NCBI GenBank assembly: GCA_017302505.1
Contig: JAFLDH010000018.1
Location: forward strand, 1-32,137
Direction: 5' to 3'
DNA from: Burkholderiales bacterium
Lineage (GTDB): Bacteria > Pseudomonadota > Gammaproteobacteria > Burkholderiales > Burkholderiaceae_C
DNA length: 32,137 nucleotides
Shown here: positions 5,546 to 31,733 of the stretch, piece by piece
Position numbering within the stretch: position 1 is the first letter of the stretch
Layout of the letters: each line of letters starts with the position of its first letter
Translations under genes and position numbers: made by a program
Notes under the pieces: generated by a model
Databases searched by the model: none
Seen by the model: the letters and a program-made list of their open reading frames with translations, nothing else
What the model was told of the DNA's origin: nothing

Positions 5546-6679
5546 TCAGTCGGGCTGTCGCCAGACCACGCGGCGCACGTAGTCGGTATAGCTGATCAGA
5601 ATGCGCAGCACCTTGTCCGACACATTGGGCATGCCGTAGTCGGCCACTGGCCGCAAGCCCCTTTGCGAGCCTCGCGGCTGCTCGGCCAGAACTGCGAGGC
5701 CTTGGCGCACACGGTCTGCATCCAGTCCGACCATCATCACTGCGCCTTCTTCCATGCCTTCTGGACGCTCGTGCGCCTCGCGCAGGTTCAGCGCCGGGAA
5801 ATTGAGGATCGACGATTCCTCGGTGATGGTGCCGCTGTCCGACAGCGCAGCCCGCGCGTGCATCTGCAGATGCACGTAATCGTGGAAACCCAGCGGCTTG
5901 AGCAACTGAACGCGCTCGTCGAAGCGTGTGCCAGTGGCCTCGATCCTCTTGGCGGTGCGTGGGTGGGTGGAGACGATCACCGGCAAAGCGTGTTCGCGCG
6001 CCAGCAGGTCCAGCAGTGCCGCCAGCTTGGCGAACTGCCGCGGCGATTCGATGTTCTCTTCGCGGTGGGCGCTGACCACAAAGTACCTTCCCGGTTGCAA
6101 GCCCAACCGCTGAAGCACGTCCGAGGCGTCGATGCGTGCGCGGTTGTGGGCCAGCACCTCGGCCATGGGGCTTCCTGTCTTGATCACGCGGTCCGGTGGC
6201 AGGCCTTCGCGCAAGAGGTACTCACGAGCGATGTCGCTGTAGCAGAGGTTGACGTCGGCCACGTGGTCGACGATGCGACGATTGGTTTCCTCGGGAACAC
6301 GCTGGTCGAAGCAGCGATTGCCGGCCTCCATGTGAAAGATCGGCACCTGGCGGCGCTTGGCAGGAATCACCGACAGGCAACTGTTGGTGTCACCCAGAAC
6401 CAGCATTGCGTCCGGCGCTTCGGCAGCGAGCACGTCATCCACCGCAGCGATGATCCGGCCGATGGTCTGCGCAGCAGAGCCGCCCGCACTGTTCAGGAAG
6501 TGATCGGGTTTGCGCAGTCCCAGGTCATCGAAGAACACCTGATTGAGTTCGTAGTCGTAGTTCTGCCCGGTATGCACGAGCACCTGTGTGCAGTGCTCGT
6601 CCAGCCGCTGCATCACGCGTGACAAGCGAATGATCTCGGGCCGGGTCCCGACCACAGTCATGACCTTCAGGCGCGTCAT
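5546..6679 (-). CDS. fnlC: UDP-N-acetyl-L-fucosamine synthase (2-epimerase, FnlC/WbjD/CapG)
   Basis: A 377-residue WecB-like non-hydrolysing 2-epimerase. GTRPEII (11-17), GDTNS (96-100), HMEAGNR (116-122), PEETNR (129-134) and SAHREEN are visible. The HMEAGNR...FD..VPEETNR form is typical of the FnlC/WbjD branch rather than of WecB itself. It performs the last step to UDP-L-FucNAc, inverting C2 of UDP-2-acetamido-2,6-dideoxy-L-talose (UDP-L-PneNAc). The ATG overlaps the fnlB stop (ATGA), so translation is probably coupled. Position after fnlA and fnlB gives the complete three-enzyme pathway, which makes this assignment much safer than sequence alone would. Confidence 0.92.
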
Positions 6680-18710: not shown

Positions 18711-19693
18711 TCGGCCTGCTTGCGGAAAAGGTAGACCGAGTTGTCGCCGATTCGCAGCGAATCGGTCAATCGTGTCAACACGGCATTGGCGCCCAGGCGA
18801 TCGAGGTAGCTCAGCAAACGAAGTGCGACGCGTTGTCCGGTCGTGCGATTCCGGCGAGGCAGCCAGTAAGCCGATGGCTCGCCGCTCCGCGGATAGGTGA
18901 CGAGATGGCCCCACTGGAAGCCCAGCCACGCGGCTGGCGAAACCGTCACGTGCCGCTCCAGCGAAAAACCCGCTTCCTCGGCGATGCGCTGCATCGAGTC
19001 CTGGCTGAAGAACTGCAGGTGATACGGTGCGTGCCAATGAATCCAGCGGCCTCCGAACAGCTTGGCGCCCCATCCATCCGCATTGGGGGTGCTGAGCACC
19101 AGCAAACCGCCTGGCCGGAGTACCTGATGAATGCCGCGGAGCACCCGCCCGGGCTCAGATACATGTTCCAGGACCTGGTCGAGTGTGACCACATCGAAGC
19201 TCGCAGGTGCGTAGTGGGCCGCATCGAACAGCCCGTGCCGCACTTGCAGGCCATGGCGCTCGGCCACTCGAAGGATATTGGCGTCGGCTTCCACGCCGTG
19301 GGCGTCGCACCCGCGGGCGCGGTGATAGCCCAGGGACTCGCCAAATCCGCAACCTATGTCGAGCACGCGCACATTGCGCGGAACCCAGCGGAATGCGTTG
19401 GCCCGACGACCGTGCCACCAAGCATCGAAGCCATCGGACTCTTCGGGTGGAGACCACGCATCCAGGTCAAAGCTCGAGCGTGGATAGTACCGGGTGTACA
19501 GGTCTGCAATCTGCTCGTCAGACATCCGGGCATCGAGGCTGCGATGTCCGCACGAGTGGCAGCGCAGCAGTTCGAAGTCCCCAGGAAAGCCATAGCGGTC
19601 ATCGTGCAGCCTACGCTCGGGCAGCGACGCTTCGCCGCACACGACACATTGCCGAATCGGTGTGCTGTCGTTCGGGCTGGCGTTGGATGTCAC
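18707..19693 (-). CDS. Class I SAM methyltransferase with N-terminal four-cysteine motif
   Basis: Predicted 328 residues from GTG 19693 (GTGA overlap with the FkbM gene stop). Two Cys-x2-Cys pairs (C16/C19, C45/C48) suggest a zinc ribbon, followed by motif I LDIGCGFG (111-118), TLDQVLEHVSEPG, VLRPGGLLVLSTPN and a C-terminal segment with HWHAPYHLQFFS that is conserved in this Methyltransf_23-like group. It is a second, clearly different member of the same architecture as the gene at 11559-12329. Neighbours on both sides are a FkbM methyltransferase and a glycosyltransferase, so the acceptor is probably the growing lipid-linked glycan or a nucleotide sugar. Confidence 0.83.
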   Translation of the reverse strand: MTSNASPNDSTPIRQCVVCGEASLPERRLHDDRYGFPGDFELLRCHSCGHRSLDARMSDEQIADLYTRYYPRSSFDLDAWSPPEESDGFDAWWHGRRANAFRWVPRNVRVLDIGCGFGESLGYHRARGCDAHGVEADANILRVAERHGLQVRHGLFDAAHYAPASFDVVTLDQVLEHVSEPGRVLRGIHQVLRPGGLLVLSTPNADGWGAKLFGGRWIHWHAPYHLQFFSQDSMQRIAEEAGFSLERHVTVSPAAWLGFQWGHLVTYPRSGEPSAYWLPRRNRTTGQRVALRLLSYLDRLGANAVLTRLTDSLRIGDNSVYLFRKQAE

Positions 19694-20484
19694 GCCGACT
19701 CCCGCTCGAAGAACACGTTGTACAGGCGATCGTGATGTTCGGCCCGGAATTCGACCATGCTGCCGCCGACGAGTACCCGAGCCCGATAGCCACGAGACTT
19801 CATCCAAGTGCAGACTTCGTCGATCGACGTGCCGAAGGCCTGCAGGTTCTGGTTGTACAACTCGACCAGCACCAGCCGAGGCCGGCGGCTCGCTCCGAAA
19901 AGCCCTACGGCACCCTGCAGAACGCGAAGCTCGGCGCCTTCGACGTCGATCTTCATCACGTCGGGCACGATGTCTCCGGCGGCTTGGCAGTAGCCGTCGA
20001 GCGTGGTGGCTTCGCACTCGAAGCGCCGAACCTCGGCCTTTCGACCCGTGTCGATCATTGACGAGTAGGCGCTGTCGGCAGCCAGCGAGAAGGTGACACG
20101 TCCAGGCTGGTCGCTGACGCACTTGCGCACCACCTGCACGTTGCTCACCTGGTTCAAGTACAGCGAGACCTGAATCAAGCTGGCATTCAGGTCGATCGGC
20201 TCAAAGGCGTGAATCTGCGCCGTGGGATGCGATCGACCCGTGGGGACGCAGTAGGCTCCCACATTGGCCCCAACGTCGAACACCGTGTCGTTGTCGCGTA
20301 CGGCCGACAGAAAGTGTTGCAGGTCTTCGGTCTCGAATTCGCCGAGCGCCATGTTTCGGCCCACGTCCTCGTGGGGCCGCACGAGCATGTTGCAACCCAT
20401 GAAGCGGGTCTGCACGACGGGAGGGCCCAATCGCAATTGACGAGCTGCAAGGCGTCGGCGGTACTGCGAAACGATCGAAGGCAT
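19690..20484 (-). CDS. FkbM family methyltransferase
   Basis: A 264-residue protein. FDVGANVGAY (from 69), IHAFEPIDLN, then KIDVEGAELRVLQGA and LVLVELYNQN are the core FkbM motifs. FkbM enzymes O-methylate hydroxyl groups, and many in glycan loci methylate sugars. ATG 20484 lies 24 bases after the flippase stop, and the gene is GTGA-coupled to the next methyltransferase. There are no membrane segments or signal peptide, so it should act in the cytoplasm. Which sugar hydroxyl is methylated cannot be read. Confidence 0.88.
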   Translation of the reverse strand: MPSIVSQYRRRLAARQLRLGPPVVQTRFMGCNMLVRPHEDVGRNMALGEFETEDLQHFLSAVRDNDTVFDVGANVGAYCVPTGRSHPTAQIHAFEPIDLNASLIQVSLYLNQVSNVQVVRKCVSDQPGRVTFSLAADSAYSSMIDTGRKAEVRRFECEATTLDGYCQAAGDIVPDVMKIDVEGAELRVLQGAVGLFGASRRPRLVLVELYNQNLQAFGTSIDEVCTWMKSRGYRARVLVGGSMVEFRAEHHDRLYNVFFERESA

Positions 20485-20508: not shown

Positions 20509-21864
20509 TCAGTGGCGTGCGCCAAGCGACTTCGCCGCACGCCAGGGCGCGGTGAGGGTGCGCATCATCAGTACGAAGTTGCGCCTGGCACGAGGAAACA
20601 GCAATTGGATCGGCAGCAGGCCGATTTGCGTGACTACCGTGGCCCAGGCAGCGCCGAGCGCGCCGTGATCCGGTATCAGCAGCAGATTCAGGGTGACATT
20701 GAGCGCGGCGCCTGCGGCTGTGTAGTAAAGGCCATAGCGCTGCAGTCCTTCGGCCAGGAGCCAGCGACTGTGCACCACCGACAGCGCCACAGCGATGCCC
20801 GCCCATGCCTGCACCTGCAGAACGCTAGTGGCTTGGGCGTAGGCCGAACCGTACAACATGGGCACGAAGATCGGTGCGAGCGCCACGATGAGCAGGGCGA
20901 CGCCAATGCCCATCCACGCCATCAGATCGTACAGACGCTGCACATAAGCCTCGTAGACAGCCTCGCCTTCTGCGCGGCGCGCGACGATGACCGGAAAGGC
21001 GGCCGTGGCGATGGAGATGGGTATGAAATACCAGACCTCGGCGATGCGAAGCGCTGCGGAGAACTGACCCACCTCTGCATCGCCGACCATGGCGGCCAGC
21101 ATGACTTGATCGACGCGCATGTAGATCACCACTGCCATGCTGGACAGGATCAGTGGCCAGCTTTCTCGCAGCAGCATCCGTGCGGTCGGACCGTGCCATC
21201 GCCAGCGCAGCTGCGCGTCGTTGTCGCGCACCCATGCGCGCCAGAGCAGGAGCGCGGCCAGCGCTGCTTCGATGACCAACGTGGCTCCAAACCACGCAAT
21301 CGGTGCGTCAATTGCCAACAGCGCCAGACGCAGAAGCATCGCCGCCATGTAGGCAATGTTCGCCGCCACAACGGATGGTCTGGAATGCATGCGTGCCTGA
21401 AAGTGGTAATCAAGCACCTGGGAGGTCTGGAACACCAGCATCGCTGCGTTGCAGGCCACCAGCAAGACAGGTAGCGCCTCGTCGGGCCGAATCCAGGCCA
21501 TCAGCAGCGTGGCCAGCACGGCGAGCGAGGTGGCGGCAGCCAGGCGCATCAGCATGGCGGTGCCGAGCAGCGCTCCTGCGTCGGCGCCTTCTCGTACAAG
21601 TTCGCGGACCAGCACGCCGTCCATGCCCAGCATTGCGACGGCACCAAAGAAAGCCACGAAGGCGATCGTGTAGTTCCAAACACCAAAGGCCTCTGGACCG
21701 AAATGGCGTGCCAGCCAGACCGTGACCACGAGACCCAGGCCCAGCCTGACCACCTTGTCGCCGATCAGCCAGGCCGAGTTGGTGGCCACGCGTCGGATCG
21801 ACATGCCGGACCCCGCCATCGCGTGCGTTGGTGTGACCGGCGGTGTTCGGGAGGCCAGGCTCAT
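20509..21864 (-). CDS. wzx: Wzx-type flippase (MOP superfamily polysaccharide transporter)
   Basis: A 451-residue polytopic protein with about 12-14 hydrophobic segments. The N-terminal [20 protein letters not shown] and [15 protein letters not shown] patterns, [19 protein letters not shown] at the middle, and the [14 protein letters not shown] repeat are typical of Wzx/RfbX. It should flip the finished undecaprenyl-diphosphate-linked repeat across the inner membrane. The first 20 residues are polar and an internal ATG (residue 16 or 21) is a possible true start, but ATG 21864 overlaps the gmd stop (ATGA). It is the only flippase in the window. Confidence 0.9.
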
Positions 21865-22982
21865 TCGTGGTGGTCGTATGCCTTGAAGCCCGCCTGCCGG
21901 ATGAGGTGGTCGCGGCTGGCTGCCTGGAAGTCGGCTTCAACCATCTCGCGAACCAGCTCATCGAAGCCAACCTTGGGCACCCAGCCCAGCTTGGCCTTGG
22001 CCTTGCTCGGATCACCCAGCAGCGTTTCCACCTCCGTGGGACGGTAGTAGCGTGGGTCCACCCGAACCACCACCTGCCCTGGCTGCACCCGGGCGCGTTC
22101 GCCAGTCACGGCACGCACCGTCGCTGTCTCCTTGTCACCGTGGCCCTGGAACTCAAGCTCGATGCCCAGTTCTGTCGCCGCCGCTTGAACGAACTGCCGC
22201 ACGCTGTACTGCACCCCCGTGGCGATGACGAAGTCTTCGGGCTGCTGCTGCTGCAGCATCAGCCATTGCATCTCAACGTAGTCCTTGGCGTGGCCCCAGT
22301 CGCGCAGCGCGCTCAGGTTGCCCAGGTACAGGCAATCCTGCAGGCCCAGCGCGATGCGCGCCATCGCCCGCGTGATCTTGCGGGTGACGAAGGTCTCACC
22401 GCGCAGCGGGCTCTCATGGTTGAAGAGGATGCCGTTGCAGGCGTACAGGCCATAAGCCTCGCGGTAGTTGACGGTGATCCAGTAAGCGTAGAGCTTGGCC
22501 ACCGCATAGGGGCTGCGAGGGTAGAAGGGCGTCTTTTCGGTCTGAGGCACTTCCTGCACCAGACCGTACAGCTCGGAGGTGCTCGCCTGGTAGAAGCGCG
22601 TCTTCTTCTCCAGCCCCAGGATGCGGATCGCCTCCAGGATGCGCAGGGTGCCGATGCCGTCGGCGTTGGCGGTGTACTCCGGTGTCTCGAAGCTCACCGC
22701 CACGTGGCTCATGGCCGCCAGGTTGTAGATCTCGTCCGGCTGCACCTGCTGGATGATCCGTATCAGGTTGGTGCTGTCGGTCAGATCACCGTAGTGCAGC
22801 ACGAAGCGCGGGTGGTCGACGTGCGGGTCCTGGTACAGGTGATCGATGCGGTCGGTGTTGAACAGGCTCGCCCGTCGCTTGACACCGTGAACCACGTAAC
22901 CTTTGTCCAGCAGCAGTTCGGCGAGGTAGGCGCCATCCTGGCCGGTAACGCCAGTGATCAGGGCTACTTTGGGGGAAGTCAT
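21861..22982 (-). CDS. gmd: GDP-mannose 4,6-dehydratase
   Basis: A 373-residue SDR enzyme of standard length. GVTGQDG (11-17) binds NADP; the active site reads T135, E137 (STSELYG), Y159 and K163 (YAVAK); [10 protein letters not shown] and [16 protein letters not shown] are Gmd signatures. It makes GDP-4-keto-6-deoxy-D-mannose, the shared precursor for GDP-L-fucose (fcl, directly upstream) and GDP-perosamine (per, in the same unit). Start and stop both overlap neighbours by ATGA. A run of four glutamines (LQQQQPEDF) near residue 240 comes from CAG repeats and is in frame. No GDP-mannose-making genes (manB/manC) are in the window. Confidence 0.96.
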
Positions 22983-23938
22983 GCGGTTCCTTCGCGTTGC
23001 ACGGGTGAGTTGTCCTGCCGGAATGGGGCGGATGCGTAGGCCTGCGCGATGCCTTCGCGCAAGCCGGTCCGAGCACGCCAGCCCAATGCAGCCATGCGGC
23101 TGACATCGAGCAGCTTGCGCGGCGTGCCGTCGGGTTTGCTGTGGTCGTAGACGATCCGTCCGCGGAATCCGACCACGTCCATCACCGCTTCGGCGAGTTC
23201 CCGAATGGTCACGTCCTGCCCGGTACCCAGGTTCAGCAGGGCGCCGTCGTAGCCGCGCTCCATCAGGAACACACAGGCATCGGCCAGGTCATCCACATAG
23301 AGAAACTCGCGTCGCGGCGTACCGCTTCCCCAGACCACGTACTCCGCATCGCCACGAGCCTTGGCCTCGTGTGCCTTGCGCAGCAGGGCGGGCAGCACGT
23401 GGCTGTTGGCCAGGTCGTAGTTGTCGTTCGGGCCGTACAGATTGGTTGGCATCACGCTGACGTACTGCCGGCCATACTGGCGCTGATAGCTCTCGCAGAG
23501 CTTCACGCCAGCGATCTTGGCGATGGCATAGGGCTCATTGGTGGCTTCAAGGGGCCCGGTCAGCAAGTACTCTTCCTTGATCGGCTGCGGGCAATCGCGC
23601 GGGTAGATGCAACTGGAGCCCAGGAACATCAGCCGCTGCACTCCCGCCAGGTGAGCGCCATGGATCAGGTTGTTCTGGATTGCCAGGTTCTGGTACAGGA
23701 AGTCAGCTCGGTATTGATCGTTGGCCTGGATACCCCCCACCTTGGCCGCGGCGATGAAGATGTAGTCAGGTCGCTGGTCAGCCAAGAACGCGTGCACGGC
23801 GCGTTGGTCCAGCAGGTCCAGCTCGGTGCGGCTGCGCAGCACCAAGTTGTCATAGCCGCCTGACTGCAGCCGGCGCACGATGGCGCTTCCGACCATGCCT
23901 CGGTGACCGGTAACGAAGATGCGGGCATGGCGGTCCAT
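22979..23938 (-). CDS. fcl: GDP-L-fucose synthase
   Basis: Predicted 319 residues from ATG 23938, which overlaps the regulator stop as TGATG; AGGAAAG lies just upstream and excludes the longer start at 23956. GHRGMVG (11-17), the S108/S109/C110 site in GSSCIYP, and Y137-x3-K141 (YAIAK) match Fcl/WcaG catalytic residues; [12 protein letters not shown] and NSHVLPALL complete the pattern. It epimerises C3/C5 and reduces C4 of the Gmd product to GDP-L-fucose. It is followed by gmd with ATGA overlap; in most loci gmd comes first, so the order is reversed here. Confidence 0.95.
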
Positions 23939-24327
23939 CAGGCACTTTCCTTCCATTGCGGCGTGTCTGCCAGTTCGTCGCGCAGCGAGACGATGGTCTG
24001 GCGCAGCTGCTCGAATTCGGCTTCCTTGCGCGAAAGGAAGGCCCTTGTCAGGCGCACCTTCTCACGCAATCCACTGGGCGTCAGCACGTAGGCATAGGCC
24101 AGCTTGTTGTCACTGCGGCGGAAGTTGCCAGCCTTCACGAGGCCTTTGTCGAGCAGCGAGTGCAAGACGTAATGGGCCTTGCCCAGGCTCAGCCCCAGTG
24201 CTTCGGACAGCTCGCGCTGCGACATCTCCGGGCGCTGCTCGAGCAGGCGCAGCACGGCCAATCGCGCCGCTTCGGCGTCGCCGGGTTGAGGTTGCAAGGC
24301 CGCAGGGACTTGAGGCTGTTCAATCAT
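23938..24327 (-). CDS. MarR family EPS-associated transcriptional regulator
   Basis: Predicted 129 residues from ATG 24327. A winged helix-turn-helix (SQRELSEALGLSLGKAHYVLHSL, about 36-58) with a wing through FRRSDNKLAYAYVLTP (69-84) is followed by a C-terminal helix rich in charged residues (about 86-120) suited to dimerisation. This matches the MarR-type regulators named for exopolysaccharide loci. It probably controls the genes around it. The start codon lies at the centre of a perfect palindrome (24316-24334), and a TACAAT box lies 11 bases before the ATG, suggesting autoregulation. The ligand is unknown. Confidence 0.87.
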   Translation of the reverse strand: MIEQPQVPAALQPQPGDAEAARLAVLRLLEQRPEMSQRELSEALGLSLGKAHYVLHSLLDKGLVKAGNFRRSDNKLAYAYVLTPSGLREKVRLTRAFLSRKEAEFEQLRQTIVSLRDELADTPQWKESA

Positions 24328-24334
24328 TGAACAG
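24316..24334 (-). promoter_or_regulatory. Palindromic operator candidate over the regulator start codon
   Basis: The 19 bases read CTGTTCAAT-C-ATTGAACAG on the plus strand, two perfect 9-base arms around one base. On the minus strand the centre base is the G of the ATG at 24327-24325. Length and symmetry suit a MarR dimer; binding by the encoded regulator is inference. Confidence 0.6.
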
Positions 24335-24337
24335 GCG

Positions 24338-24343
24338 ATTGTA
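24338..24343 (-). promoter_or_regulatory. Possible -10 box (TACAAT) for the MarR-type regulator
   Basis: Read on the minus strand the hexamer is TACAAT, 10 bases before the ATG. A start site about 7 bases downstream would fall inside the palindrome, so a bound dimer would block initiation. I see no convincing -35 hexamer at 16-18 bases upstream, so this is weak. Confidence 0.35.
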
Positions 24344-24365: not shown

Positions 24366-24917
24366 TCAGTCGAAATGCGGGCTTTCCGCGAAGAATGGCG
24401 CTGAGGCGTCGCGGGCCGTCAGCACCGGGGCCTGACCGATGGTGGGCCACTCGATACCCAGCGCCGGGTCATCCCAGCGAATGCACCGCTCGGTCTGAGG
24501 AGCGTAGTAGTCGGTGGTCTTGTACAGGAAGTCGGCCCCGTCCCCGGTCACCAGGAAACCATGCGCAAGGCCGGGCGGCAGCCAGACCATGCGGTGATTG
24601 CTGCCACTGAGGCTGATGCCCGCCCAGCGGCCAAACGTCGGGCTGCTGCGCCGCAAGTCGACGGCCACGTCGAACACTTCGCCCTGGGTGACCCGCACCA
24701 GCTTGCCCTGGGCATGCGGCGGCAACTGGTAGTGCAAGCCCCGCAGCACGCCATGGGCCGAGCGCGAATGGTTGTCCTGGACAAAGCGCACCTCCGAGCC
24801 CAGCGCCTCGTCGAACGCGCGAGCGTTGTAGCTCTCCATGAAGAAGCCGCGCGCATCCCCAAATACCTTGGGTTCCAGGATCAGCATGCCTTCGATGGCG
24901 GTCTTCAGGATCTTCAT
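24366..24917 (-). CDS. rfbC: dTDP-4-dehydrorhamnose 3,5-epimerase
   Basis: Predicted 183 residues from ATG 24917, the normal RmlC length; a TTG at 24950 overlapping the rfbD stop is the alternative. The cupin-type fold shows GDARGFFMESY, the catalytic H62 in VLRGLHYQ, VAVDLRRSSPTFG, WLPPGLAHGF and Y132 in DFLYKTTDYY. It epimerises C3 and C5 of dTDP-4-keto-6-deoxyglucose on the way to dTDP-L-rhamnose. rfbD is directly upstream, but rfbA and rfbB are not in the window. The regulator gene follows after 38 bases. Confidence 0.95.
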   Translation of the reverse strand: MKILKTAIEGMLILEPKVFGDARGFFMESYNARAFDEALGSEVRFVQDNHSRSAHGVLRGLHYQLPPHAQGKLVRVTQGEVFDVAVDLRRSSPTFGRWAGISLSGSNHRMVWLPPGLAHGFLVTGDGADFLYKTTDYYAPQTERCIRWDDPALGIEWPTIGQAPVLTARDASAPFFAESPHFD

Positions 24918-24946
24918 GAGGGTTTCGTCGGGTCGGTTGGCTGCGG

Positions 24947-25840
24947 TCAAGTCAGGACCTCATGCAGCATGCGCTCAACGCCGCTGCGCCAGTCGGGCAA
25001 GCGCAAGTCGAACTGCTCGCACAGCCGCCGGGTGTCCAGCCGTGAGTTGAGTGGACGCTGGGCCGGTGCGGGAAACGCACTGCTCGAGACCGGCACGATG
25101 GCCTCGTCGCTCACTCGCAAGCTCTGGCCCAAGCCACGGGCGACGCGGACCACGTGTCGAGCGTAGCCGTGCCAGCTGGTTTCGCCGCTGGCCGCGGCGT
25201 GGTAGGTGCCGGCCAAGGCCGGTTCCGCCTGCACCCTGCGCAACGCATGGGCGGTCAGGTCGGCCAAGAGATCTGCGCCCGTGGGCGCGCCCACCTGATC
25301 GTCCACCACCTCCAGCCTGTCGCGGCTGGCCGCCAGTCTGAGCATCGTGCGGGCGAAATTGCCGCCGCGGGCCGCATACACCCAGCTGGTTCGCAGAATC
25401 AGATGCCTGCAACCGCTGGCGCGGATGGCCTCCTCGCCGGCCAGCTTGGTGCGACCATAGACGTTGAGCGGGGCCGGCGTGTCGTCCTCGCGCCAAGGGC
25501 GCTGGCCGGAGCCATCGAATACATAGTCGGTGCTGTAGTGCACCAGGCAAGCTCCCAGCGTCGCTGCCTCCCGGGCGATGGCCGCCGGCGTGTCTGCGTT
25601 GATCGTCTGGGCCAGCGCCGGCTCGCTCTCTGCCTTGTCAACTGCCGTATGGGCAGCGGCGTTCACGATCACCTGTGGGGCAATCGCACGGACGGTGGCA
25701 GCCACCTCCGCCGGCCGGCTGAAGTCGGCCGGCCACTGCGTGCTGTGCACGTCCAGAGCAACCAAGTCACCCAGCGGCGCCAGCGCCCGCTGCAGTTCCC
25801 AGCCGACCTGGCCATTCATTCCCAGCAACAGGATCTTCAT
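24947..25840 (-). CDS. rfbD: dTDP-4-dehydrorhamnose reductase
   Basis: Predicted 297 residues from ATG 25840, where the conserved MKILLLGMNGQVG begins; an upstream start at 25858 would add six residues. It has the dinucleotide site GMNGQVG (7-13), T104-D105-Y106 in HYSTDYVFDG, and Y128-x3-K132 (YGRTK), all RmlD hallmarks. It reduces the C4 ketone to give dTDP-L-rhamnose. It lies 32 bases after the chain-length gene and 29 bases before the rfbC ATG. The gene looks intact. Confidence 0.95.
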   Translation of the reverse strand: MKILLLGMNGQVGWELQRALAPLGDLVALDVHSTQWPADFSRPAEVAATVRAIAPQVIVNAAAHTAVDKAESEPALAQTINADTPAAIAREAATLGACLVHYSTDYVFDGSGQRPWREDDTPAPLNVYGRTKLAGEEAIRASGCRHLILRTSWVYAARGGNFARTMLRLAASRDRLEVVDDQVGAPTGADLLADLTAHALRRVQAEPALAGTYHAAASGETSWHGYARHVVRVARGLGQSLRVSDEAIVPVSSSAFPAPAQRPLNSRLDTRRLCEQFDLRLPDWRSGVERMLHEVLT

Positions 25841-25872: not shown

Positions 25873-26994
25873 TCAGCGGGTAGCCTGTGGCGAGCCCTGA
25901 CGCCAGGCGTGTCGCAACAGGATGACCATGCCGATGAGCAACAGGCTCATCAGCGTAGCAATCACGGCGATCAGTCCCCGTTTGGGCTTACTCTTGTACT
26001 CGGGCGGCGTCGCCGGATCGACCACCTGGATCAGCGCTCCCTCGCGACTCTCGTCGACACGCGCAATCTCGTATTGCCGCGCGAACAACTCGAAGAGCGT
26101 CTCGCGGTACTTGTACTCGCGGTACTTGGATACGTAATCCGGTCCAGCGCTTGAATCGGCCGCCTGCTCCAGGCGTGCCAGCTGGGACCGCAATGCCGTG
26201 ATCTGTGACAGCTGCCGTTGCAGCTCGGGTGAATTCTCGGCCAGCGTTGCGCGCATCACCTGGGCACGCACTTCGGCGGCGGTGATTTCGGCACGCAAGC
26301 GGGCGTAGCCCTCGGCCGCCGCCTTGGGCTCGGCGCGCAACGCCCCCAGGTTGAAGCCGCTGGCCTGGAGGTCGTCCTGCGCTTTGGCCAACTGGTCGCG
26401 CGCGTCCTTCAACTCCTTCTCGAAGAACGCGCGGCGTTGCTGGGCTTCGCTGACCGCCAAGACCGAAGTCAGGCGCCGCAACTCCTCGACATAGGCATTG
26501 GCCAGATCGGCGGCGCGCGTCGGGTCCGGGTCATCGACTTCGACGCTGATCAGTCCGTCCTTCTTGCCCACTGCGATGCGGCTGGCCTGGGCGAGCGTCT
26601 GTCGCGCCGCAAAGCGGTACTTGGCTTCGTACACCTGCTGCAGCTTGAACTGGTCGACCAGCCGATCCTGTACCGTGACGCTCTGCAGTAGCGCGACGTA
26701 CTGGTCGGCCGGGCTGCGAATGGATGCGCCCACACCGGCCAAGCCCGCAAGCCCACCGAGCGAGCTCAGCGCAGCGGCAAGGCCGCTTTGCTGCTGCTGC
26801 GGTGGCAGGAAGGATGTGCGCGCGGTATAGATGGGCGTCATCAGGAAAGACACCCCCAGCGCGATCACACCGACGAGAAGCGAGCCCAGCAACCAAGGCT
26901 TCCAATGCGTGACCAGCGGCCTCAGCAGGTCCACCAAGCCCGGTAAAGGGTCCGTGGTTGCCGGTGTGCCGGGAGATGGCGCTTCACTCATCAT
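25873..26994 (-). CDS. Wzz-type polysaccharide co-polymerase / chain-length determinant
   Basis: Predicted 373 residues from ATG 26994, which shares one base with the upstream stop (TGATG). Two membrane helices (about 34-53 and 340-361) enclose a periplasmic region with long coiled-coil-forming segments (EKELKDARDQLAKAQDDL). The proline-rich PATPPEYKSKPKRG just before the second helix is the Wzz/PCP signature. There is no C-terminal tyrosine-kinase domain, so this is a PCP-1 or GumC-like short form rather than Wzc. It should set polymer length with the Wzy candidate and link to the SLBB export protein encoded just upstream. An in-frame run of four glutamines (PPQQQQS, near residue 66) is a local oddity. 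Confidence 0.9.
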   Translation of the reverse strand: MMSEAPSPGTPATTDPLPGLVDLLRPLVTHWKPWLLGSLLVGVIALGVSFLMTPIYTARTSFLPPQQQQSGLAAALSSLGGLAGLAGVGASIRSPADQYVALLQSVTVQDRLVDQFKLQQVYEAKYRFAARQTLAQASRIAVGKKDGLISVEVDDPDPTRAADLANAYVEELRRLTSVLAVSEAQQRRAFFEKELKDARDQLAKAQDDLQASGFNLGALRAEPKAAAEGYARLRAEITAAEVRAQVMRATLAENSPELQRQLSQITALRSQLARLEQAADSSAGPDYVSKYREYKYRETLFELFARQYEIARVDESREGALIQVVDPATPPEYKSKPKRGLIAVIATLMSLLLIGMVILLRHAWRQGSPQATR

Positions 26995-28991
26995 CAGTTG
27001 GTCAGCGTGACCAGCGCCGCCACACCCAGCGCAAACTGCGCCAGGATCTGAGTCCAGTCCTTCGCCCACTGCACGAAGGTGGTCTTGTCGAGTTCCTCCG
27101 GAACGAACAGGGTATCGCCCGGCAACGCGGGCAAGGTCTCGAAACTGGAGCGCAGGCCACTGCCCCAACCCGATTCCTGCAGGTTGCTGATGACCGTGCC
27201 GTTGGCGCGCAGAACGAAGGTGCTGCCGGCGTCGGCGCCACGCGTCGGGCCACCGGCCTGCCGCAGGTAATCCGACAGCGTGCGACCATCTTCACGCAGG
27301 TAGCTTCCGGCGTTGAACACGCTGCCGAACACGCCCACGCTGGTGGGCACGGGCGGCACGAACAGGCGGTCGCCGTCTTCGAGCATCAGGTTCGGCAGCT
27401 CGCGGCTGTCCGGGGGCATCTGCAGAACCACCCGACCCGTGGGCTTGATGGCGCGAAGCTTCTCGATCAGGCGCGCGGTGGCCGCGGCTCGTCCGGCCTG
27501 CGCCGCAGCTTCGTCCGCGCTGGTGATGCGCTGTGTCGACGACGACAGAGCAATCTCGGTCTCCAAGCTGCGCAATGCGCGATCGTAGTTCTCCTGCTGC
27601 GAGCGGCGCACGCTTTCGCGGGTGAAGTCGGTGCCGAACACGAAAGCGCCCGTGGTCAGGCCCCCGGCCGCACGCAACGCGTCAGCCACCGTGCTTTCCG
27701 GTGGCAGCAAGTAGTAGCCCGGGCGGGCCACTTCGCCTTCGACGCGCACACGCTTGTTCTGTCGCTGCGACGGCGTCGCCAAGCTGACCGCATTGAACGC
27801 GCGCAGCACGTCGCCGCTGCGCAGCGGCGTCTGGGCGGCGGCATTCATTTCCACCTGAACCACCCGCACGGTGCTACGCTCGTCCACGCGCTCCAGAACC
27901 AGCCGGCTGGTGTCTGCAACGGCCGAAAAGCCACCCGCCATTCGCATTGCATCGACGACCGTCTCGCCGGGCTTGAGCTCGAAGATGGCCGTCTGGTTGA
28001 CGCTGCCGATCACGCCCACTTGGGGGCCGATGGGCCCCACATGGATCACGTCATCCGCCTGCACCTGCAGGTCGGCGTTCCGATTGCCGAACAGCAGCAG
28101 GTCGTAGAAGTCCAGCTTCGACACCAGCTTGCCCTGCCGGCGCAACTGGATGTCCCGGAAGCTGCCGGAGGCCGACGGCCCGCCGGCTCGCACCAGGGCC
28201 TGCGCCATGCCCGAAAGTGCGTTCACCGTGTAGGCCCCGGGACGAGTCACGAAACCGGTGACGAACACCCGCACGCCGCGCAACTGACCCAGCGAGACAC
28301 TGAGCTGAAAGTTGCGGTAGTTCTGCGAGATTCGCTGACGCAGCAACTCAGGCAAGTCGCCATAGCGCACGCCGGAGACCATCACCGCGCCCACCCGAGG
28401 GATGGTGATTCGTCCTGATCGGTCGACGAACAGGCGCAGATCGGCGTCGACGGAGCCCCACACGGAAATGGCGATCTCGTCGCCGGGAGATACGAGATAG
28501 TCCGGCGGCACCAGGGGGCTGAAGTCGACGATGTCGCGTTCACGGCCCGTGGCCATCATCGCGTCTGCGCCCAGTCTGCGAATGCGCAGGGAACTGTCGG
28601 TGTTGAACTCCTGGCCCGGAAAGGCCAGCCGGTTCACATAAAGCTCGAATTCGCTCGGCGGCTGTGCCCTGCGAACAGCCCTCTCCAACTCCAGCCGCTC
28701 CTCGATGTCGATGTCCCGTCCGGTGGCGCTGCGCCGTGCCCGGCTGTCGAGCGAGGTGCCGTTGTTCAGTTCTGGCGCGCGCAGCTGTCGGGGGCCGGTC
28801 GGATCGCGCGTTTCGGTGTCGATCGTCACCGAGATCGACTCGCTTTGGCTCTCGGTGCGCAGGTCACCCGTCTGGGCCAAGGTCTGACCCGCACCCACGA
28901 GCATGGCCAGCGTCACCAGCACCCGACCTAGACGGACGATCCCGTTGAGGCATGGTTGAAGGCAGGATAACAAGGTGCTGGCGAATGGCAT
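26994..28991 (-). CDS. Polysaccharide export outer-membrane protein, multi-SLBB (Wza/GfcE-related)
   Basis: A 665-residue protein, well above the 380 or so of classical Wza. It has a Sec-type signal (hydrophobic core about 22-36, likely cleavage near TLA-Q at 39/40). The Poly_export domain begins at PPDYLVSPGDEIAISVWGS (from 162) and is followed by several SLBB repeats (RVFVTGFVTRPGAYTV, VGVIGSVNQTAIFELK, VRVEGEVARPGYYLL, VGVFGSVFNAGSYL). A hydrophobic segment ends the chain (ILAQFALGVAALV). No lipobox follows the signal core. It should form or gate the outer-membrane exit. It is the first gene of the minus-strand unit, divergent from the WecA-like gene; no clear Shine-Dalgarno was seen. Confidence 0.9.
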   Translation of the reverse strand: MPFASTLLSCLQPCLNGIVRLGRVLVTLAMLVGAGQTLAQTGDLRTESQSESISVTIDTETRDPTGPRQLRAPELNNGTSLDSRARRSATGRDIDIEERLELERAVRRAQPPSEFELYVNRLAFPGQEFNTDSSLRIRRLGADAMMATGRERDIVDFSPLVPPDYLVSPGDEIAISVWGSVDADLRLFVDRSGRITIPRVGAVMVSGVRYGDLPELLRQRISQNYRNFQLSVSLGQLRGVRVFVTGFVTRPGAYTVNALSGMAQALVRAGGPSASGSFRDIQLRRQGKLVSKLDFYDLLLFGNRNADLQVQADDVIHVGPIGPQVGVIGSVNQTAIFELKPGETVVDAMRMAGGFSAVADTSRLVLERVDERSTVRVVQVEMNAAAQTPLRSGDVLRAFNAVSLATPSQRQNKRVRVEGEVARPGYYLLPPESTVADALRAAGGLTTGAFVFGTDFTRESVRRSQQENYDRALRSLETEIALSSSTQRITSADEAAAQAGRAAATARLIEKLRAIKPTGRVVLQMPPDSRELPNLMLEDGDRLFVPPVPTSVGVFGSVFNAGSYLREDGRTLSDYLRQAGGPTRGADAGSTFVLRANGTVISNLQESGWGSGLRSSFETLPALPGDTLFVPEELDKTTFVQWAKDWTQILAQFALGVAALVTLTN

Positions 28992-30255: not shown

Positions 30256-31716
30256 ATGAACGAAACACCCACCGCTGACGCCGAAACCGTCACCCCCGCT
30301 GCGCCGGCGCCGCTGTTCAGCAGCCTGCCGCTCGATGCCAAGCTGCTGCGCGCCGTGGCCGACCAGGGCTACGCCTCGATGACGCCGATCCAGGCCAAGG
30401 CCATCCCGATCGTGCTGTCCGGCCGCGACGTGATGGGCGCCGCCCAGACCGGCACCGGCAAGACTGCCGCCTTCTCGATCCCGCTGCTGCAGAAGATGCT
30501 GCGCCACGAGAACGCCAGTGCCTCGCCGGCGCGCCACCCGGTGCGCGCACTGGTGCTGGCGCCCACCCGCGAATTGGCCGATCAGGTGGCCGCCAACATC
30601 CTGGGCTATGCGCGCCACACCAAGCTGCGCACGGCGGTGGTCTTCGGCGGCATCGACATGAAGCCGCAGACCCTGCAGCTGAAGGCCGGCGTCGAGGTGC
30701 TGGTGGCCACGCCAGGCCGTCTGCTCGACCACATCGAGGCCAAGAACTGCGTGCTCAACCAGGTGGAGTACGTGGTGCTGGATGAGGCAGACCGCATGCT
30801 GGACATCGGCTTCCTGCCCGACCTGCAGCGCATCCTGTCCTACCTGCCCAAGCAGCGGCAGACGCTGCTTTTCTCGGCCACCTTCTCGCCGGAAATCCGC
30901 CGCCTCTCGCAGAGTTACCTGCAGGATCCGGTGGTGGTCGAGGTGGCGCGGCCGAACGCCACTGCCACCACGGTGGAGCAGCATTTCTACAACGTGGGCG
31001 ATGACGACAAGCGCCGCGCGGTGCGCCAGGTGCTGCGCCAGCGAGAGCTGTCGCAGGCGCTGGTGTTCGTCAACAGCAAGCTCGGAGCCGCCCGGCTGGC
31101 ACGCTCCTTCGAACGCGACGGCCTGAAGACCACCGCGCTGCACGGCGACAAGTCGCAGGACGAGCGGCTGAAGGCGCTGGACGCCTTCAAGCGGGGCGAG
31201 GTCGAGGTGCTGGTGGCCACCGACGTGGCTGCGCGCGGGCTGGACATCGCCGACTTGCCCGCGGTGTTCAACTTCGATGTGCCCTTCAACGCCGAGGACT
31301 ACGTGCACCGCATCGGCCGCACTGGCCGGGCCGGTGCGTCCGGGCTTGCCGTGACGCTGGTGGCGCGCGACGACCTGCGCTTGGTCGGCGACATCGAGAA
31401 GCTGATTAAGAAGAAGATCGAGCTCGAGCCCTTCGAATTCGAGGACGACCGCCCGCGCCGTCCGCCGCGGCGCATGGCAGACGACAGCGAGCCGCGCGCG
31501 ATGTCAGAGCGGACCTACGAGCCTGCCTACCGCCGCCCGCCCGAGCCGCGGCCCAAGGATCCGTTCTTCGACCAGCCCTACGAGCCCTCCGGCAGTGGCA
31601 CGCCGGCGTGGGAAGCGTCGAAGACGGCTGCCGCGCCAGTGGCACGACCGGTGGCCTCGCCCAACATCCGCAGCAAGAAGAAGACGGCGGCGCTGCTCGG
31701 CGGCACGCCCGGCTGA
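30256..31716 (+). CDS. rhlE: DEAD-box ATP-dependent RNA helicase, RhlE-like
   Basis: Predicted 486 residues from ATG 30256; an ATG at 30235 would add seven residues. All helicase motifs are present: Q motif (Q46), AQTGTGKT (63-70), PTREL (103-107), TPGR (152-155), DEAD (176-179), SAT (207-209), ATDVAARGLD (321-330) and HRIGRTGR (351-358). After the core, a proline/arginine-rich low-complexity tail ends in a lysine-rich patch, as in RhlE-type proteins that bind RNA through basic tails. The role is RNA remodelling (ribosome assembly, decay, cold response). It is a housekeeping flank, not part of the sugar locus. Which RhlE paralogue it is cannot be told. Confidence 0.92.
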   Translation: MNETPTADAETVTPAAPAPLFSSLPLDAKLLRAVADQGYASMTPIQAKAIPIVLSGRDVMGAAQTGTGKTAAFSIPLLQKMLRHENASASPARHPVRALVLAPTRELADQVAANILGYARHTKLRTAVVFGGIDMKPQTLQLKAGVEVLVATPGRLLDHIEAKNCVLNQVEYVVLDEADRMLDIGFLPDLQRILSYLPKQRQTLLFSATFSPEIRRLSQSYLQDPVVVEVARPNATATTVEQHFYNVGDDDKRRAVRQVLRQRELSQALVFVNSKLGAARLARSFERDGLKTTALHGDKSQDERLKALDAFKRGEVEVLVATDVAARGLDIADLPAVFNFDVPFNAEDYVHRIGRTGRAGASGLAVTLVARDDLRLVGDIEKLIKKKIELEPFEFEDDRPRRPPRRMADDSEPRAMSERTYEPAYRRPPEPRPKDPFFDQPYEPSGSGTPAWEASKTAAAPVARPVASPNIRSKKKTAALLGGTPG

Positions 31717-31733
31717 GGTCTGCCCTCAGCCGG
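31709..31733. terminator. Perfect 10-bp hairpin spanning both convergent stop codons
   Basis: CCGGCTGAGG, a 5-base loop TCTGC, then CCTCAGCCGG. The helicase TGA (31714-31716) lies in the left arm and the methylase stop (TGA on the minus strand, 31728-31726) in the right arm. No T-run follows on either side, so it is not a canonical intrinsic terminator, but it could end or protect both transcripts. Confidence 0.5.

Follow-up and report, generated by a model that had tools for sequence, protein, structure and literature searches.

A conserved GTTCA-N5-TGAAC dyad at the predicted promoter of EPS-associated MarR regulator genes: a candidate operator for autoregulation

In an exopolysaccharide gene cluster of a Burkholderiales bacterium the start codon of a MarR-type regulator lies at the centre of a perfect palindrome, raising the question of whether the symmetry marks an operator of the regulator itself, a hairpin in its mRNA or a coincidence of the coding sequence. 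In the window (the whole stretch of DNA analysed, 32,137 nucleotides) the palindrome is formed by CTGTTCAAT (24316-24324), a central C (24325) and ATTGAACAG (24326-24334), with 9/9 paired arm bases; the ATG of the regulator occupies 24327-24325 of the minus strand, and the centre base of the palindrome is the G of this ATG. Direct reading and a repeat search thus confirmed what the initial annotation had described, namely a 19-bp palindrome with the regulator ATG at its centre and a TACAAT hexamer just upstream (minus strand, 24343-24338). The genome scan that it had proposed was also run: the 19-mer, with any base at the centre and up to three mismatches, was found at a single place in the 5.5-Mb genome, and in the window it matched once, with 0 matches expected from shuffles, both counts being those of a search for a sequence already seen and not for any palindrome.

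By itself the symmetry is unremarkable in this window. Perfect palindromes with 9-bp arms and gaps of 0-10 number 11 here, including two that are nested, whereas 20 first-order Markov windows average 3.45 and never exceed 6. Those with arms of at least 9 bp include, besides the one at the regulator, inverted repeats at 5857-5876, 18747-18765, 20167-20193, 27812-27829 and 31709-31733. Weak matches to GTTCA-N5-TGAAC (at most two mismatches) are also commoner than expected, with 20 in the window (one perfect, four with one mismatch) versus a shuffle mean of 8.29 and no shuffle reaching 20, perhaps because of codon usage. With 11 such palindromes present, the symmetry alone proves little, and the cheapness of palindromes in the window is the point in favour of a coincidence by which the first codons, ATG ATT GAA CAG, would happen to mirror the leader. 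It is the conservation of GTTCA-N5-TGAAC across species that makes the case.

The regulator is a member of the MarR_EPS family, scoring 138.9 bits against TIGR04176 (curated cut-off, 88). Its winged helix is of the MarR type by sequence (PF01047, 30.7 bits with a cut-off of 24.6; PF12802, 32.2 bits with a cut-off of 27), the best domain match being HTH_24 (37.9 bits), and sequence matches in the PDB are led by transcription factor E (E 0.0005), followed by the MarR protein CouR (E 0.082). A structure model built from 38 sequences (37 of the 67 listed locus proteins plus the window protein) reached a mean pLDDT of 80.6 and a pTM of 0.61, with helices at residues 18-31, 37-44, 48-62 and 72-81 and a long C-terminal helix at 84-121; the recognition helix is likely to correspond approximately to residues 48-62. 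Residues invariant in the 38 sequences include Q37, R38, S47, G49, K65, F69, K75, Y78 and Y80. A Foldseek search with the model returned nothing at E ≤ 0.001; among the 50 matches listed, the alignments with Lrp-type HTHs span about 45 residues at mostly close to 2.3 Å, and MarR chains superpose at rmsd values above 12. The whole-chain MarR fold is defined by its N- and C-terminal dimer helices. Thus, it is the DNA-binding domain that makes the regulator MarR-like, and the part that forms the dimer may be different.

Polysaccharide export and nucleotide-sugar genes are the neighbours of the regulator (table 1; the name fcl is taken from the initial annotation and from context). In many Burkholderiales loci the gene is found inside a row of the type wza-wzz-marR or wza-wzz-rmlD-rmlC-marR-(fcl-gmd), with varying upstream neighbours, so that the dyad would there be an internal promoter-operator.

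Table 1. Position of the palindrome, of the predicted promoter element and of the genes discussed in the text, in window coordinates.
Feature	Position	Strand	Remarks
19-bp palindrome	24316-24334		Direct reading and repeat search
Conserved core GTTCA-N5-TGAAC, here GTTCA-ATGAT-TGAAC	24318..24332	-	Perfect in 78/90 loci
-10-like hexamer TACAAT	24338..24343	-	5 nt upstream of GTTCA, 10 nt upstream of ATG
MarR_EPS regulator (TIGR04176), 129 aa	23938..24327	-	Profile match; ATG inside dyad
rmlC-type dTDP-4-dehydrorhamnose 3,5-epimerase (PF00908)	24366..24950	-	Upstream neighbour in row
fcl-type gene, NAD-dependent epimerase family (PF01370)	22979..23956	-	Downstream neighbour
gmd, GDP-mannose 4,6-dehydratase (PF16363)	21861..22982	-	Downstream
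Polysaccharide export protein (PF02563, SLBB; Wza type)	26994..28991	-	Upstream, same-strand row

Relatives of the locus were gathered with the HMM in 100 related genomes and with peptide patterns and tblastn in species genomes (73 loci). Four loci were dropped (L012, a second copy of the own locus L001; L025, a fragment; L095, at a contig edge; L083, a copy of L002) and six weak HMM matches without a tblastn match (L021-L024, L026, L027) were left out, yielding 90 non-identical loci that include the window and also L020, whose gene is cut by the contig end (79.3 bits). The comparison of orthologues had been set beforehand as the refutation test of the proposed operator, and in it the core was kept although the start codon changes position: 78/90 loci (77/89 without the window) have a perfect GTTCA-N5-TGAAC between -300 and +30 nt of residue 22. 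This count could be biased toward the site by MIEQPQVP, a peptide pattern (of six used) that spans the first codons. Less exposed to such bias are the HMM samples, where the matched stretch starts well inside the protein: the core is perfect in 13/18 loci over the cut-off in the HMM-only sample, own genome included, and in 9/12 further non-duplicate short loci of a second HMM sample, limited to the matches delivered as loci (L124, L125 and L128 were dropped as copies and L136 for missing upstream DNA), leading to 87/102 loci for the 90 and the 12 together. Cluster representatives carry the core in 48/60 cases at 80% protein identity, 33/44 at 70% and 18/28 at 60%, a decreasing share that counts against the operator reading. 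Spacers of 0-4 and 6-12 were found in 0 or 1 of the 90 loci each, and 20 shuffling rounds yielded no site.

The core stands out from its surroundings. Among protein pairs less than 60% identical (2,921 pairs) most flanking columns are 18-39% identical, with maxima of 0.46 in the -10 region and 0.53 beside the dyad, the ten core bases being identical in this comparison by selection of perfect sites. The flanking bases are a pyrimidine at -1 in 76/78 loci and a purine at +1 in 77/78 (both in 75/78), and the conserved unit of the putative site is YGTTCA-N5-TGAACR. Pairing past the core is not kept: the inner spacer pairs are complementary in 32/78 and 26/78 loci, and the two nearest flanking pairs in 36/78 and 29/78. 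Thus, of the palindrome as initially proposed, the GTTCA-N5-TGAAC core stands as the unit and the full 19 bp do not, since the outer and inner pairs vary. The coding coincidence, the probability of which is negligible, can be considered refuted by the conservation of the core with a single spacer length, by the unpaired flanks and by the in-frame ATGs, which occur inside the core in different registers (+5, +6, +9) or not at all.

Twelve of the 90 loci miss the perfect site within the scanned range. Three of them have it with one mismatch (L009, L049, L075), L004 has a perfect spacer-4 form, and in L054, L063 and L064 a perfect N5 site is found 0.7-1.9 kb upstream, 5' of a NusG/RfaH-like gene that precedes the regulator. 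The remaining five (L007, L015, L019, L074, L088) have neither a perfect or one-mismatch N5 form nor a perfect N4 form within 300 nt, and no perfect N5 form farther out in the locus DNA; by eye, L015 shows a degenerate N4 form adjoining TAGAAT. Among the 12 further HMM loci, L127, L131 and L134 are without the core. The recognition helices of L007, L015 and L019 resemble those of carriers, and no clean split of recognition helices between loci with and without the site emerged, so that the identity of the binder is not proven by covariation. Four loci (L043, L046, L047, L066) are titled Bacteroidia, Verrucomicrobia or Geobacteraceae while the regulator and its upstream region look like those of Rhodocyclaceae or other betaproteobacteria, and they are possibly mis-binned contigs.

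The position of the dyad was then compared with those of start codons and of promoter-like elements in the 78 loci with a perfect core. Counted from the start of the dyad, the first in-frame ATG or GTG falls inside it in 21/78 loci, at 13-50 nt in 47/78, and beyond 50 nt or nowhere in 10/78. The best hexamer 0-12 nt upstream deviates from TATAAT by at most one mismatch in 38/78 loci (4.5% of shuffles) and by at most two in 72/78 (about 30% of shuffles), with a gap to GTTCA of 7 nt in 39/78, of 2 nt in 15 and in the range of 0-11 nt in the rest. An exact TTGACA is found 17-18 nt further upstream in 23/78 loci (hand count). Because the distance to the start codon varies while a -10-like hexamer close upstream is usual, a promoter operator lying over the transcription start is supported as the best reading of the dyad. 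The earlier proposal of an operator covering the transcription start, the first codons or both gains support from the 78 conserved loci and from the adjoining -10-like hexamer, the promoter itself being predicted.

The same data bear on the alternative reading of the symmetry, that of an RNA hairpin over the start codon hiding the ribosome entry site of the regulator. The stem is indeed present in the predicted fold of the region and an in-frame ATG lies inside the dyad, at +5, +6 or +9, in 16/78 loci. However, the regional fold is not unusually stable (z -1.25, with 26/200 shuffles folding as well), no in-frame ATG or GTG is found within the dyad in 57/78 loci, including the 10 in which the nearest one downstream is missing or farther off than 50 nt, and the ten core bases stay constant instead of changing in pairs, with the pairs outside the core not kept. 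Furthermore, the dyad directly follows the -10-like element and part of it may escape transcription. Such a start-codon-sequestering hairpin, which had been offered in the initial annotation as a second reading, is thus weak and appears highly improbable.

A second alternative concerns the sign of regulation. MarR_EPS may bind the dyad, in agreement with the operator reading on the identity of the binder, and the site may yet serve, instead of repression, activation or the halting of polymerase that comes from upstream in the operon (a roadblock). The location of the gene within a row like wza-wzz-(rmlD-rmlC)-marR in many Burkholderiales loci would fit with this possibility, as would the window promoter, in which no recognizable -35 element was found (the best candidate, AGGAGG, has 4 mismatches to TTGACA). 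On the other hand, a site just downstream of the -10 element is in the typical position of a repressor site, and the dyad follows a promoter with an exact TTGACA in the 23 loci mentioned above, so that an activator or roadblock function is considered unlikely.

The operator also seems to accompany the promoter, as suggested by RfaH-like genes and by leaders bearing an ops-like element. In L054, L063 and L064 the dyads (L054:1137, L063:2287, L064:2289) precede genes identified as NusG/RfaH-like by a NusG Pfam match (L054 and L063) or by tblastn (L064), and the first codons of the L054 gene lie within the dyad, which contains an ATG in frame with that gene. The motif GGCGGTAGC, which we take to be that of the JUMPstart/ops element of RfaH antitermination, is present in the 400 nt that precede the regulator domain in 9/90 loci (L009, L010, L053, L056, L069, L073, L074, L075, L088), and an RfaH-like match was obtained in eight of the loci L001-L100. 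In the five of the nine loci that have a perfect operator (L010, L053, L056, L069, L073) the dyad is 5' of the ops-like element. An operator at the promoters of RfaH-like genes and of ops-bearing leaders would connect repression with antitermination in the control of polysaccharide operons. In the window no exact ops element was found, the two one-mismatch matches being reached also by 27/100 shuffles, and the own genome yielded one NusG-domain protein; thus, the RfaH/ops layer seems to be absent here.

How far the action of the regulator extends was estimated from the distribution of GTTCA-N5-TGAAC in whole genomes. The own genome (5.5 Mb, 552 contigs) contains three such sites. The 18 carriers (17 over the cut-off and G045) contain 54, of which 13 are at the regulator and 41 elsewhere (2.3 per genome), compared with 67 (2.5 per genome) in 27 of the 77 genomes without an HMM match, all these totals being hand sums; no excess of non-regulator sites was found in the 18 carriers over the 27 non-carriers. 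The pyrimidine and purine flanks are present in only 1 of 21 non-regulator sites (21 of the 41, from 20 hand-picked stretches). A wider regulon was rejected on these grounds. Because carriers show no excess of sites elsewhere, a local regulator that would act on its own operon is the simplest reading. One of the other own-genome dyads (L101, G000:C13:25597-25611) is followed, some 80 nt downstream, by a secreted-looking protein that has no Pfam match and carries a PEP-CTERM-like tail (VPEP...); the flanks of this site are A..T and not Y..R, and it may be a chance occurrence. The remaining one (L103) is at or near the nusA-infB junction, with gene names assigned by eye.

A second use of the GTTCA half-site, which was unexpected, emerged in f87, one other family of the phylum. 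The TIGR04176 model matches open frames of 690-705 codons in 14 of its genomes, with scores above the cut-off in 7 and below it in 7. The one that was translated (L137) comprises an N-terminal winged helix, a PUA-like domain, ATP-sulfurylase and APS kinase, the latter cut by the locus end. In all 11 of the 14 matches that were delivered as loci (L137-L147, from G481, G479, G413, G407, G334, G433, G304, G233, G279, G322 and G166) GTTCA-N4-TGAAC is found 55-77 nt upstream of the domain, and the perfect N5 form is absent; the 11 loci form 4 clusters at 70% identity, with the N4 form in all of them. In 13 of the 14 matching genomes a strict 16-mer version of the N4 form has 0-2 places each; of the 9 places in total, by coordinates, 7 (from 6 genomes) adjoin the fused gene and 2 are elsewhere. 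By eye, L141, L143 and L145 show a second N4 copy some tens of nt further upstream. That GTTCA half-sites recur here, with a spacer one base shorter, supports the view that proteins of this domain family recognize GTTCA.

The fused proteins also bear on the possibility that a DNA-binding protein different from MarR_EPS uses the site on the same operons. Some loci have a MarR_EPS gene without the site, and binding by MarR_EPS is something that we infer. However, the site accompanies MarR_EPS genes in several orders and classes, carriers do not accumulate it elsewhere in comparison with non-carriers, and the same half-sites precede genes that encode a fused relative of the domain, making a different binder quite improbable.

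Taken together, the dyad is very probably the operator of the MarR_EPS regulator itself, which would block an internal promoter until a signal releases the dimer. With this assumption, a dimer of the winged-helix protein would bind GTTCA-N5-TGAAC, the half-sites of which are 10 bp apart (approximately one helical turn), and, the site being just downstream of the -10 element and over the expected transcription start, the bound dimer would block RNA polymerase. Repression would silence a predicted internal promoter for the regulator, fcl, gmd and the genes farther downstream, and a signal linked to polysaccharide synthesis would release the dimer, the sugar or lipid of the initial annotation being a guess at its nature. 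Transcription starting 6-9 nt after the -10 element would produce a leader of a few bases; because the start codon is inside the operator, 10 nt after the -10 hexamer, the window mRNA is predicted to be almost leaderless.

From the sequence comparisons, the mechanism would be that of an ordinary MarR-type autorepressor, with an operator that is new and of a known kind. MarR, MexR and OhrR are MarR-family autorepressors, and the present system resembles them in the small winged-helix protein, in the half-sites about one helical turn apart and in the location at its own promoter. It differs from them in the GTTCA half-site, in the modelled C-terminal part, which is one long helix (84-121), and, in the window, in the start codon inside the operator. 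The MexR operator reportedly is GTTGA-N5-TCAAC, which would have the same geometry and one changed base per arm; a literature search for this MexR site found nothing. In the literature searched no paper was found with the GTTCA-N5-TGAAC motif in several spellings or with the accession TIGR04176, and no described operator for the family to which the window protein belongs was retrieved. In the available portions of the papers, an EPS-associated MarR regulator is mentioned in a remark on expression (PMC10599003) and as a row in a table of acylated proteins (PMC8007912), and 'marr' occurs only as an author name in the reference list (PMC1569441).

The finding provides a defined candidate DNA target for a little-studied family of exopolysaccharide-cluster regulators and makes the family testable, and a single 17-bp probe should serve many species. 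A tentative extension, which is possible but held with less than even confidence, is that one winged-helix family with a GTTCA half-site comprises both free EPS repressors, with an N5 spacer, and repressors fused to PAPS-forming enzymes, with an N4 spacer. If this were true, the fused ATP sulfurylase/APS kinase would be a trigger enzyme that regulates the gene encoding it, and the free and the fused branch may both respond to a related activated-nucleotide signal.
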